The translations under genes were made by a program, and so were the position numbers. Under the pieces are notes generated by a model. The model did no database searches and had not been told where the DNA came from. It saw only the letters and a program-made list of their open reading frames with translations. 64,000 nucleotides of DNA from Aminivibrio sp. GTDB taxonomy: Bacteria; Synergistota; Synergistia; Synergistales; Aminobacteriaceae. The stretch's first letter is position 1. Every line of letters begins with the position of its first letter. This document shows, one piece after another, positions 2,495-46,589 of the stretch. The stretch spans positions 1-64,000 of the forward strand of contig NZ_JAESIH010000064.1 of NCBI RefSeq assembly GCF_016756745.1, in the 5' to 3' direction.

Positions 2495-2753
2495 CCTGAA
2501 TCCGCACATCAGCGGGAGCGTCTCCGGAACTCGCTTGGGCGGGGGGTGCAGATTGTCGTCCGTGACAACAGCCCAAGCGAGTCCCGCGGCTCCCTGCGTT
2601 CGCCGGCTGCCTGCCTGTGAAACCGACATCCGTGTCGGTTTCTCTCGCCTCAGGCGCCCTCCCCCAGGGGCGAAGAGATTATCCCCTGGGGGAGGGCGAA
2701 TTCACCTTTTGCCCGGCGACACTCCCTCTGCTTGAAAAATGAGCGGATTTAGG
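2495..2753 (-). mobile_element. MITE-like hairpin repeat, copy A (longest)
   Basis: 259-bp member of the repeat family described at 34412-34575, in the opposite orientation. Ends are CCTGAATCCGC and GCGGATTTAGG. It contains the GAAACCGACA/TGTCGGTTTC hairpin, a CCCCAGGGG-type hairpin, a GTTGTC/GACAAC-type segment and the GCCCGGCGACACTCCCTCTGC end module. Both flanks are A-rich (GAAAA and AAAAA), compatible with a 4-5 bp target duplication but not diagnostic. It fills the gap between the dnaK promoter and the phoU terminator. Confidence 0.8.
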
Positions 2754-10094: not shown

Positions 10095-10150
10095 CCTAAA
10101 TCCGCAGGCAGCGGGGAGCGTCACCGGTGCTCGCTTGGGACGCCGGGACC
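10095..10150 (-). repeat. MITE-like repeat, truncated copy B
   Basis: CCTAAATCCGCAGGCAG followed by the GGAGCGTCACCGGTGCTCGCTTGGG module, matching the reverse complement of the right end of copies E and F. The other half is missing; the sequence diverges after about 10150. Confidence 0.7.
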
Positions 10151-15626: not shown

Positions 15627-15795
15627 CCTAAATCCGCTAATTTTTCAGGCAGAGGGAGTGTCGCCGGGCATAAGGTGAATTCGCCCCCCAGGGGCGAAGA
15701 GATCTCGCTCCGCGCTCCTTGCGGAGATATCCCCTGGGGGGCAGCGCCCGGGCCGAGCGATCCCCGGTAACGCTCTCGCTGCCTGCGGATTTAGG
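15627..15795 (+). mobile_element. MITE-like hairpin repeat, copy C
   Basis: 169 bp with ends CCTAAATCCGC and GCGGATTTAGG. It shares the AGGCAGAGGGAGTGTCGCCGGGCA left module and the GCTGCCTGCGGATTTAGG right module. The middle holds a CCCCCCAGGGG/CCCCTGGGGGG hairpin plus a GCTCCGCGCTCCTTGCGGAG hairpin instead of the GAAACCGACA module. No target duplication is visible; it lies against an older fragment in the opposite orientation. Confidence 0.8.
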
Positions 15796-30797: not shown

Positions 30798-30962
30798 CCT
30801 AAATCCGCTAATTTTTCAGGCAGAGGGAATGTCGCCGGGCACAGCGCCCGGGCCGAGAAACCGACACGGATGTCGGTTTCAGGTGCAGTTGTCAAGGATG
30901 ACAATCTGCACCCCCCGCCCAAGCGTTCCCCGGTGACACTCCCCGCTGCCTGCGGATTTAGG
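30798..30962 (+). mobile_element. MITE-like hairpin repeat, copy D1
   Basis: 165 bp with ends CCTAAATCCGC and GCGGATTTAGG. It carries the full set of modules: AGGCAGAGGGA left end, GCCGGGC/GCCCGGGC hairpin, GAAACCGACA/TGTCGGTTTC hairpin, GGTGCAG...CTGCACC hairpin with TTGTC/GACAA, and the CGGTGACACTCC right module. Same orientation as E and F. No target duplication; it abuts the partial copy D2. Confidence 0.85.
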
Positions 30963-31114
30963 GAGATCTTACTCTGCGCTCTTTGCGGGGGGATCCCCCG
31001 GGGGAGGGCGCCTGCCGGCGAACGCAGGGAGCCCGCGGGACACGCCTGGGCAGTTGTCACGGACGACAATCCGCACCCCCCCCCGTGACGCTCCCACTGG
31101 GGTGCGGATTCAGG
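30963..31114 (+). repeat. MITE-like repeat, partial copy D2
   Basis: The right two-thirds of an A-type element: it shares with the reverse complement of copy A the GGCGAACGCAGGGAGC segment, the GTTGTCACGGACGACAAT hairpin and the GTGCGGATTCAGG end. Its left end is missing at the junction with D1. Confidence 0.7.
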
Positions 31115-34338: not shown

Positions 34339-34411
34339 TCTCTCCACCTCCCGAAAAATTTCCTTGTCATTATTATTTTACACTACAGTCATCTTTCTTT
34401 CCCGGACGGAT

Positions 34412-34575
34412 CCTAAATCCGCAGGTTTTTCAGGCAGAGGGAGTGTCGCCGGGCACAGCGCCCGGGCCGAGAAACCGACACGGATGTCGGTTTCAGGTGC
34501 AGTTGTCAAGGACGACAATCTGCACCGGCGGCCCAAGCGAGCACCGGTGACACTCCCGCTGCCTGCGGATTTAGG
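34412..34575 (+). mobile_element. MITE-like hairpin repeat, copy E, with 5-bp target duplication
   Basis: 164 bp with terminal inverted repeats CCTAAATCCGCAGG...CCTGCGGATTTAGG. Internal stems: GCCGGGC/GCCCGGGC, GAAACCGACA/TGTCGGTTTC (perfect) and GGTGCAG..TTGTC/GACAA..CTGCACC. It is flanked by the direct repeat CGGAT (34407-34411 and 34576-34580), evidence of transposition. No coding capacity. It lies between msrA and the EFR1 gene and is about 98% identical to copy F. Confidence 0.9.
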
Positions 34576-34649
34576 CGGATTATGTCCGACGGGCTTCCCT
34601 GCTGTACAATAAAATGAAAGGCCCAACCGAAGGAGGCGCTTCATCGGTC

Positions 34650-35432
34650 ATGAAGGAATCGTCAGTGGACTTCTACTTTTTCAGCGGAACGGGAAACACC
34701 CTGCTTGCGGCCCGGGCCGTGGCCGGAAGGCTCAGGGAAGGAGGGAAAAGGGTCCGGCTCCGCCGTATGGAAAAGGGGTTCGTTCCCTTCCAGGATGACG
34801 GCACCGCCCTCGGAATCGCCGTCACCGTGGCCATGTTTTCCACGTACCCCTTCGCTTGGGAATTCCTCGAGAAGCTCCCCGACGGCGGGGGCCGGGGCGC
34901 GTTCCTTGTCTCGACCATGGGACAAACGTCCGGCGGACTCCGCCCCGCAATGAAAAAACTCTTTACCTCGAAACACTACACCCCCCTGGGGGCACGGGAA
35001 TTCGTCATGCCGTCAAACTACAACAACACGACCATCCCCGTTGCCGCAAACAGGGAAAAAATCGAAACGATGGAGAGGGACGCCGCCCTGTTTGCGGAAT
35101 CTCTCCTGGAGGGAAGAGCCGTCTGGGAGGGGGGCAATATCCTCTCTCCCCTGTTCTACCGACTTTCCCGCAGGCAGTGGCCATGGAGGCTCATGAGGAA
35201 AAAGTATCCCCTCACCGTGGACAGGGGAAAGTGCATCAAGTGCGGGAAGTGCGCCAGGCTCTGCCCGGCAAAAAACATCCGCATGGCGGAGTACCCGGAA
35301 TTCCTGGACCACTGCGTCTCCTGCCAGCGGTGCGTGGCTTTCTGTCCCCCGATGGCCATAGGCGTGCAGGGCAAAAACTACCGGCAGTACCGTTCGGTGG
35401 AGTACGGCGATCTTGTCTCGGAGAATCTTTGA
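34650..35432 (+). CDS. EFR1-type ferredoxin (flavodoxin-like plus 2x[4Fe-4S])
   Basis: 260 residues from ATG 34650 (GAAGGAGG about 13 bases upstream); an earlier ATG at 34614 would be nearly leaderless relative to the TACAAT -10 box. The N-terminal flavodoxin-like domain starts YFFSGTGNTLLAARAVA and binds FMN. The C-terminal dicluster ferredoxin has CIKCGKCARLCPAKN near residue 195 and CVSCQRCVAFCPP near 223. EFR1 proteins are cytosolic low-potential electron carriers. The gene is 15 bp upstream of a Cys-Sec protein and probably supplies it with electrons. Confidence 0.88.
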   Translation: MKESSVDFYFFSGTGNTLLAARAVAGRLREGGKRVRLRRMEKGFVPFQDDGTALGIAVTVAMFSTYPFAWEFLEKLPDGGGRGAFLVSTMGQTSGGLRPAMKKLFTSKHYTPLGAREFVMPSNYNNTTIPVAANREKIETMERDAALFAESLLEGRAVWEGGNILSPLFYRLSRRQWPWRLMRKKYPLTVDRGKCIKCGKCARLCPAKNIRMAEYPEFLDHCVSCQRCVAFCPPMAIGVQGKNYRQYRSVEYGDLVSENL

Positions 35433-35447
35433 AAAGGAGGGGACGGA

Positions 35448-35774
35448 GTGACCAGGAGAAAACTCAAGCTCTACATGGAAAAACCCATGGGGTCGGTCTG
35501 CTGAAGCAACTTCCTGTACGGGGAGGAGGAAATGAAATCCTTTCCGCAGGCGGCCGCCCGTGAGGCGGCAGGGGCTCTTCTGGTGAAGATACGGGAGCGA
35601 TACGGGGAGTCCATGGAAGTCAACATCTACGATCCCCGCTGCTGTTTCTGGTTTTTCGACCTCATCCGGTTCAACATCCGGGCGGAACCCACGTGGATCC
35701 TCGACGGGAAGCTTCTCTGGAGGGGGATCCCCTCCTGGGACGAGCTCCGGGAAAAAATTGACGGGTCCCGTTAA
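35448..35774 (+). CDS. Small Cys-Sec redox selenoprotein (C18-U19)
   Basis: 108 residues if the in-frame TGA at 35502-35504 is selenocysteine. Start GTG 35448 follows AAAAGGAGG by eight bases. The redox motif is PMGSVC-U-SNFLYGEE; a second Cys pair, DPRCCFWFF, lies near residue 65. The C-terminal part (RAEPTWILDGKLLWRGIPSW) looks thioredoxin-fold-like. A caller that stops at TGA would keep only 80 residues from ATG 35532, losing the motif; that internal ATG does have a GGAGG close by. The family was not recognised. The 15-bp distance to an EFR1 ferredoxin suggests a two-component redox pair. Confidence 0.82.
35502..35526 (+). promoter_or_regulatory. Putative Sec codon plus SECIS-like hairpin
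   Basis: UGA AGCAA, then a CUUCC/GGAGG stem with loop UGUACGG. The loop begins about 10 bases after UGA, closer than in E. coli, so the element is less certain than the one in msrA. Confidence 0.45.
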
Positions 35775-35789
35775 GGGACCCGTTTTTTT
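35763..35789 (+). terminator. Rho-independent terminator after the Cys-Sec gene
   Basis: GGGTCCC GTTAA GGGACCC followed by G and seven T residues; the stop codon is in the loop. Confidence 0.9.
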
Positions 35790-35809
35790 CCGTATCAGGG
35801 GATTTCTCC

Positions 35810-36196
35810 TCAGGGCAAGACCCTGCACTCCCCGCAGAGCTCCTTCCATTCCCCGTTTTCGTCCCGGATCTCGGCCCTGGCCTCGTCGCCCTTGATCCAC
35901 CAGAGCAGTTCGCCGTCGTCGGTGTACCGGGCGCCCGAGCCCGAGATCACCTGGGGCAGGGTGTACTCCCGGCCGTCGGGGAAAAGAATCTTCACGAACC
36001 GGAGGCTCTCGTCGGACAGACTGTAGTACCGCGCCACCAACCGGTCTCCGTTTGCGCAGACATAGGTGACCGGCTCCCCGCCGGTGACCGTTATGGGCTG
36101 GTTCCCTGAGGCCGGCCCGGACAGCGCACAAACAACGAACAATAGGACGCACAGGATCCCCCTTACGGCTTTCACGATACTCTTCCTCCTCTGCAT
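35810..36196 (-). CDS. MliC-family lysozyme-inhibitor-like protein
   Basis: 128 residues with a signal peptide (VKAVRGILCVLLFVVCALSG). The mature C-terminal domain matches the MliC/PliC pattern: VTYVCANGDRLVARYYS, then DGREYTLPQVISGSGARYT and LLWWIKGDEARAEI. The conserved SGSGARY and the Trp-Lys-Gly loop are the lysozyme-binding parts in known inhibitors. The Cys near the start of the core could pair with the CGEC at the C-terminus. A Cys at 16 or 23 might allow lipidation, but no perfect lipobox is present. Expected in the periplasm or outer membrane; suggests exposure to host or predator lysozymes. Confidence 0.85.
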   Translation of the reverse strand: MQRRKSIVKAVRGILCVLLFVVCALSGPASGNQPITVTGGEPVTYVCANGDRLVARYYSLSDESLRFVKILFPDGREYTLPQVISGSGARYTDDGELLWWIKGDEARAEIRDENGEWKELCGECRVLP

Positions 36197-36216
36197 TCTT
36201 CCCTTTTCTTTCCGGG

Positions 36217-36381
36217 CCTAAATCCGCAGGTTTTTCAGGCAGAGGGAGTGTCGCCGGGCACAGCGCCCGGGCCGAGAAACCGACACGGATGTCGGTTTCA
36301 GGTGCAGTTGTCAAGGACGACAATCTGCACCGGCGGCCCAAGTGAGCACTGGTGACACTCCCCGCTGCCTGCGGATTTAGG
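36217..36381 (+). mobile_element. MITE-like hairpin repeat, copy F, with 5-bp target duplication
   Basis: 165 bp, nearly identical to copy E (three differences: two transitions and one extra C). Flanked by the direct repeat CCGGG (36212-36216 and 36382-36386). Same internal stems. It lies between the MliC gene and the molbindin gene. Confidence 0.9.
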
Positions 36382-36487
36382 CCGGGATTATTCCGTTGCA
36401 AAAAATCATATCATCGTCATAATGAAAGGGGAAGATGCCGGTTCATCCCTACATCCGGCACCGACACGAAAAAGGAGGGTGAAAAGA

Positions 36488-46391: not shown

Positions 46392-46506
46392 GCCGTTTGC
46401 AAGAAAGCGTCCTCCTTGCCAAAGGGGAGGCGCGCCTGTTTCCGGGCGCACCCTAACGGTCGCTGTCCGTGGGGTTTATCCTTTAGGGCAGGCGACTCGG
46501 AGGAAA
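46392..46506 (-). ncRNA. Candidate Moco/Tuco riboswitch aptamer
   Basis: A structured, GC-rich segment on the minus strand contains CTCCGAGTCGCC, then GGAAACAGGCGCGCCTCC and the hairpin CCTCCCCTTTGGCAAGGAGG. As recalled, these words resemble parts of the Moco RNA motif (GGAAAC, GCCTCCC, TTTGGCA, GGGAGG). It lies directly before an intrinsic terminator and upstream of a molybdopterin aldehyde oxidoreductase, the right kind of target. The match was made by eye, without a covariance model. Confidence 0.5.
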
Positions 46507-46589
46507 AGATCGATATTCTCAGAAAGAAATTTCAAAAAAACACTAACTAGTCTGACCCATTTTATACCAGGAAGAGTCTCCGGACAAGC

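Follow-up and report, generated by a model that had tools for sequence, protein, structure and literature searches.

A MITE of Aminivibrio sp. whose interior matches the TwoAYGGAY RNA family and carries CsrA-type hairpin loops

In γ-proteobacteria a few decoy RNAs set the activity of the global regulator CsrA; RNA antagonists elsewhere are mostly unknown, as stated in PMC4333381. The same paper describes the binding of paired GGA hairpin loops by CsrA and a prediction, made in 2014, of CsrA binding for TwoAYGGAY. The CsrA motif is given as A(N)GGA in single-stranded regions in PMC5864184. The TwoAYGGAY family (RF01731) has the Rfam type Cis-reg and belongs to the same Rfam clan, CL00106, as CsrB of E. 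coli; PMC2864571 lists it for human gut, γ-Proteobacteria and Clostridiales. The element analyzed here is similar to this family in having an outer stem that closes on two adjacent AYGGAY-type hairpins and CGG after the second hairpin, but here the RNA makes up the interior of a MITE that is present in many copies in Synergistota. With the CsrB/CsrC, RsmX/Y/Z and Aln1 small RNAs it shares GGA in hairpin loops, paired sites and the CsrB clan. However, those RNAs are produced from one to few dedicated genes with their own promoters and contain many sites, whereas the element has two sites per copy, many dispersed copies and no evident promoter or terminator of its own. A third group of described systems comprises ERIC, BOX, RUP, Correia and REP-type sequences, which are short palindromic intergenic repeats transcribed with their neighbours. 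Our element is likewise a short palindromic intergenic repeat, yet its loops are its most constrained part, and we know of no CsrA-type paired loops in those repeats. Finally, it resembles IS1380-family elements and their MITEs in the ends beginning CCTAAATCC, the 5-bp duplication and the PF13701 transposase of the partner. In contrast to these, the transposase stays under the NF033539 cut-off, and the MITE contains RNA-like cargo, with only its ends common to the insertion sequence (IS).

The window, i.e. the whole analyzed stretch of 64,000 nucleotides, corresponds to contig C64 of a 2.94-Mb Aminivibrio genome (G000) in 100 contigs. The following features were annotated in it:

2495-2753, minus strand: long MITE copy of 259 bp with an extra hairpin module; both GGA hairpins on the minus strand; flanks GAAAA/AAAAA (four of five bases alike)
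10095-10141, plus strand: solitary MITE end fragment with one end only; fragment end approximate
15627-15795, plus strand: MITE copy of 169 bp without GGA hairpins; both ends, outer arms and the optional hairpin module present; no target duplication
30798-30962, plus strand: full-length MITE copy of 165 bp; both ends and both GGA hairpins; no target duplication
30963-31114, no strand assigned: damaged remnant adjoining the 30798 copy; one H2-like hairpin, CACGGACG at 31058
34407-34411, no strand assigned: left target duplication CGGAT of E
34412-34575, plus strand (RNA-sense strand): MITE copy E, 164 bp; ends and duplications read; RF01731 46.9 bits
34433-34563, plus strand: RNA body of E, predicted outer stem and two inner hairpins, -91.2 kcal/mol, z -10.75
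34471-34494, plus strand: hairpin H1 of E, loop CACGGATG, CsrA-type
34496-34526, plus strand: hairpin H2 of E, loop CAAGGACG, CsrA-type
34576-34580, no strand assigned: right target duplication CGGAT of E
36212-36216, no strand assigned: left target duplication CCGGG of F
36217-36381, plus strand: MITE copy F, 165 bp; absent at the corresponding site of congeners G025 and G026; RF01731 42.4 bits
36276-36299, plus strand: hairpin H1 of F
36301-36331, plus strand: hairpin H2 of F
36382-36386, no strand assigned: right target duplication CCGGG of F

Re-reading of the DNA located E and F at the places and with the lengths given in the original prediction, together with their inverted ends CCTAAATCCGCAGG, which are common to both copies (both 14-bp ends are exact in each), and the perfect direct repeats CGGAT and CCGGG flanking them. 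The roughly three differences claimed between E and F correspond to two substitutions and one inserted C. Of three internal hairpins described originally, two were retained as inner hairpins with GGA loops, and the third proved to be the outer stem, in which the ends are included. Similarly, the related copies at 2495 (with flanks four of five alike), 15627 and 30798 have both ends, and those claimed at 10095 and 30963 are reduced to a single end and a remnant, respectively. The 14-bp end has 20 matches in the window at up to three mismatches compared to 6.85 expected, and none of 100 shuffles reaches 20. E is located upstream of a gene with Fer4 domains. F, which lies just upstream of a TOBE-domain gene, has an MliC-like gene on its other side. 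Larger copies carry a further, optional hairpin. This third hairpin module (AAGGTGAATTCGCCC...) sits within one arm of the longer copies (~212-279 bp), including L018, L029, L132, L133, others and 2495-2753 of the window, and the MITE is therefore modular. A molybdenum/tungsten cofactor riboswitch (RF01055, 67.7 bits) was also observed in the window, at 46396-46514 on the minus strand.

The mobility of the E/F element is well supported. When one mismatch at most is allowed, the 13-base end occurs 146 + 134 times in the genome compared to 7 + 4 times for the reversed pattern. Queried with the DNA of E, its own genome yields 59 matches, the congeners G025 and G026 yield 46 and 29, and two further congeners, G027 and G028, yield none. 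No match to the DNA of E was found in the plasmid collection, and none to one hairpin pattern in the viral collection. Perfect 5-bp repeats are present at 56 of 95 end pairs, the latter being all ends paired in the fetched loci with spurious pairs included, whereas 0.30 would be expected with flanks paired at random. No other repeat length stands out comparably among these 95 pairs, and the duplications have no evident target consensus. In G025 and G026 no element occupies the F site, and its flanks align uninterrupted with a single CCGGG. The E site is also without the element in these genomes, but the spacer there has diverged. Two miniatures of 57 bp (L137 1465-1521 and L138 684-740) consist of nearly just the two ends and have perfect 5-bp duplications. 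Opposite orientations of the element were observed in orthologous intergenic spacers of different species (L133/L151, L154/L170 and L169/L163); flipping of one insertion in place is not supported for these pairs, since the spacers fail to align up to the element.

An IS with matching terminal repeats, which the original prediction had suggested looking for, is present in the genome on another contig:

L039 223-2134 (contig C76): partner IS of 1,912 bp; left end CCTAAATCCACACC, right end CCCAAATCCGCAGG, duplication CGGTC

It contains one reading frame, for a transposase of 533 aa that passes the cut-off of the DDE transposase group PF13701 (67.8 bits compared to 34.7) and is the single match to this family in the genome; as had been claimed, no transposase of the IS1380 type is found in the window. 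Against the NCBIfam equivalog NF033539 the protein falls narrowly short (174.1 bits, cut-off 180), and it is for this reason named only IS1380-like. By eye, the MITE and the IS have common ends and unlike interiors. This IS is thus the likely autonomous partner of the MITE, given its matching ends, its 5-bp duplication and its IS1380-like transposase, and from the sequence we infer that E and F were moved in trans by the transposase of the L039 element. The element is short, has no coding capacity, and shows inverted ends, a duplication of fixed length, empty sites and an autonomous element with the same ends, which are hallmarks of a MITE. Its original classification as a MITE with 5-bp duplications is supported by the 56 perfect repeats among the 95 pairs, by the empty F site that the suggested comparison of strains found in two congeners, and by the matching IS.

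Related IS with the same type of end and 5-bp repeats occur in G027 (CAAAT) and G012 (TATTC), and the transposase, often in pieces, was detected in 35 of 185 genomes of the phylum. In G025, 22-residue matches to the transposase begin at contig ends (C1, C2, C12, C16, C17 and C25), which suggests that several IS copies are collapsed in this assembly. Many copies of a distant transposase relative (~35% identity) were noted in a Dehalococcoidia MAG (CATOSD01 contigs, loci L190-L208).

Analysis of the interior revealed that RF01731 matches E over its whole length with 46.9 bits, compared to a gathering threshold of 43. F (42.4 bits) and the 30798 copy (39.5 bits) are under this threshold, leaving E as the only one of three matched window copies that passes the Rfam cut-off. 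In the whole genome the model has 30 matches at E 0.001, five of them over the cut-off, and no match was found in any of 14 control genomes. For the core of E, structure prediction yields a long outer stem with two hairpins side by side (-91.2 kcal/mol, z -10.75), whose AYGGAY-type loops are ACGGAT and AAGGAC, the second being of the form ARGGAY. A conserved structural RNA had been set against the MITE in the original prediction. The RNA reading also holds, as the interior matches RF01731, and it does not displace the MITE; the two readings are compatible and both apply to E and F. Covariation was analyzed for family 1, that of E and F, by aligning 32 different copies of three species, none of them with the optional hairpin module. 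In this alignment 96.0% of cells pair, and changes on both sides are seen at 6 pairs and 19 cells, compared to 2.7 and 4.2 in shuffles, with further pair types not exceeding shuffles. This covariation could be accounted for by inverted repeats acting as DNA palindromes. Strand-specific pairing (G-U versus A-C) was rejected as a proof of RNA selection, the difference being small once pairs with G-U as the commonest are dropped. A repeat-rich region of G017 (contig C2 75716-77764; L049, L055) also contains two RF01731 matches in inverted orientation, separated by about 2 kb. A composite transposon between them was rejected, since the L055 stretch is repeat-rich and has no recognizable transposase, as judged from the ORF list alone.

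Our preferred explanation, to which we assign a probability of about 0.6, is that MITEs moved by an IS1380-like transposase spread a CsrA-binding double hairpin, which is transcribed by read-through and serves as a decoy or a UTR module. The transposase, encoded on another contig, would move copies E and F in trans. In the interior RNA, the long outer stem would close on two adjacent hairpins, each with a CANGGAYG loop, in an arrangement fit for a CsrA dimer. Read-through from a neighbouring gene would transcribe this RNA, which could then bind CsrA as one of many dispersed decoys or, alternatively, act as a UTR module that places the neighbour under CsrA control. Binding of CsrA by the RNA of E and F is proposed here from motif and predicted fold, and the effect of this RNA on the cell, as either decoy or UTR module, would follow from it.

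Both hairpins show CANGGAYG loops, i.e. the CsrA motif. All 64 hairpins of the 32 distinct sequences retain GGA, with all six GGA columns invariant, and no column of the 32-row alignment varies more than the N of H1. Gathering cores by their stems alone, with the loops left free and identical copies collapsed, resulted in 47 distinct sequences (21 from G000, 12 from G025 and 14 from G026). The base before GGA in H1 is C in 19, A in 12, G in 8 and T in 8 of these, and GGA itself is kept in 47 of 47; H2 retains it in 46 of 47, and the one deviating sequence is a rearranged copy aligned out of register. The loop position N (34481 of the window in E) represents one very variable base per hairpin, with other core positions mostly 98-100% alike. 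Local hypermutation or diversification at this position is possible, and was considered because relaxed constraint alone may not explain N in young copies with intact duplications. Perfect duplications flank 56 elements; both hairpins were found in 50 of them, and in 49 of the 50 both contain GGA. The remaining six, the 57-bp miniatures among them, are without hairpins, so the RNA is a common cargo that is not needed for mobility. GGA is lost in one hairpin of L001 and in one hairpin of a single decaying copy in G040.

A second MITE family was identified in genus g27, which belongs to another taxonomic family. Here the RF01731 matches lie inside a different 250-bp element with ends GGGCATCTCTAAAAAC, which is present in all seven g27 genomes at 19 to 100 matches each; CsrA is encoded in all seven as well. 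Both ends were found in 73 of 79 analyzed elements, and perfect 4-bp repeats flank 26 of these 73, compared to 3.28 expected. The loops have the form CAGGACG, close to that of CsrB. A clean excerpt was obtained for 67 of the 79 elements. Among these, all 67 H1 loops retain GGA, as do 65 of 66 H2 loops, and one H2 is deleted. The identity to the majority letter averages 0.978 in the core and 0.873 and 0.838 at the ends, and compensated changes were counted at 13 pairs and 87 cells, compared to 5.3 and 26.4 in shuffles. Both families match RF01731, their terminal ends are unrelated, and the model of either one has no match to the other. Common descent of the two RNAs was dropped as a claim, since each model misses the other family; their RNA may reflect shared descent or convergence. 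Single relatives were found in G160 and G158.

One alternative is an ordinary selfish palindromic MITE whose hairpins serve DNA mobility or transcript stability and whose GGA loops are functionless remains of a recent master copy. Against this, GGA never changes next to a strongly varying N across 32 distinct sequences of three species, the same loops recur in the same layout in an unrelated MITE with different ends, and the g27 core is more conserved than the ends, which is the reverse of the expectation for mobility only. This alternative agrees with the perfect duplications, the near-identical copies and the partner IS, with palindromes being usual in MITEs and with the perfect duplications of hairpin-less elements; we regard it as unlikely.

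Some copies in G025 and G026 have lost recognizable ends, and their RNA body persists. For instance, L054, L152 and L168 are without recognizable ends and retain an intact RNA from GGCAG to CTGCC. Such copies could represent the original genes of a host regulatory RNA, either a sponge or a riboregulator, with mobility acquired later through the capture of one of them by a MITE, and RF01731 is known outside the phylum, according to PMC2864571. However, copies without terminal repeats may equally be old insertions, as the ends are seen decaying at the orthologous site L087/L147/L146, and no single conserved host locus was found, so that a host origin appears unlikely. We also compared substitution rates of body and nearest 60-bp flanks in five orthologous pairs. 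Pooled substitutions amount to 20/660 in the RNA body and 37/599 in the flanks (p 0.009), a difference driven by two of the five pairs, L087/L147 (1 versus 11) and L148/L167 (16 versus 24). Two pairs show no change at all, and L083/L171 has the reverse direction (body 3 versus flanks 2, plus a 42-bp insertion).

With respect to the preferred CsrA-binding explanation, the genome encodes a CsrA in which L4 and R44, which we take to be important residues, are kept. All 11 genomes with RF01731 matches have CsrA, compared to 116 of the 185 genomes of the phylum (Fisher p 0.005 with kinship ignored), an association that rests on about four lineages. In the genus of the window, the element is confined to the three species with CsrA. 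G027 and G028, the two species in which CsrA is missing, have neither the element nor many ends, despite a complete IS in G027 and fragments of it in G028. The distribution within the genus fits a link to CsrA, with few independent lineages. Binding of another protein, e.g. the transposase or RNase III, whose substrates in general include long perfect stems, with a coincidental likeness to CsrA sites, is quite improbable, as all four hairpins of the two MITE families and the G160 and G158 relatives show CA(N)GGA, RF01731 belongs to the CsrB clan, and CsrA-less genus mates are without the element although one has the IS.

Copies of both families are intergenic, with one of 47 examined in family 1 flagged inside a called frame and none of 79 in family 2 (g27). 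Gene orientation exhibits weak biases, with uncorrected p values, that differ between the families: the downstream gene is on the same strand in 30 versus 14 cases for family 1 (p ~0.02), and the upstream gene in 42 versus 23 cases for family 2 (p ~0.02). Strong UTR placement was rejected, as these biases are weak and unlike between the two families. Scanning for promoters and terminators around E and F returned weak sites only and no convincing promoter-terminator pair; the RNA is therefore probably made by read-through from neighbouring genes. A broader proposal can be made tentatively, at somewhat less than even odds: at least two unrelated MITE families of Synergistota (IS1380-type ends with 5-bp repeats and GGGCATCTCTAAAAAC ends with 4-bp repeats) carry the same paired CsrA-binding hairpin RNA, their copy number and position tune a dispersed, genome-wide CsrA sponge, and TwoAYGGAY is here an RNA of mobile elements.

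The carriage of TwoAYGGAY or CsrA-type RNA by a MITE was not found stated in the open-access literature. The prediction that TwoAYGGAY binds CsrA was already known, as given in PMC4333381; a MITE with an identified partner that carries a known RNA family, recurring on unrelated ends, appears to be new. If the proposed explanation is true, decoys or CsrA-responsive UTRs would arise by transposition at dozens of sites, and the element would be a concrete case of a mobile element spreading a post-transcriptional control module. The orphan Rfam family TwoAYGGAY would thereby gain a natural history and a direct assay.
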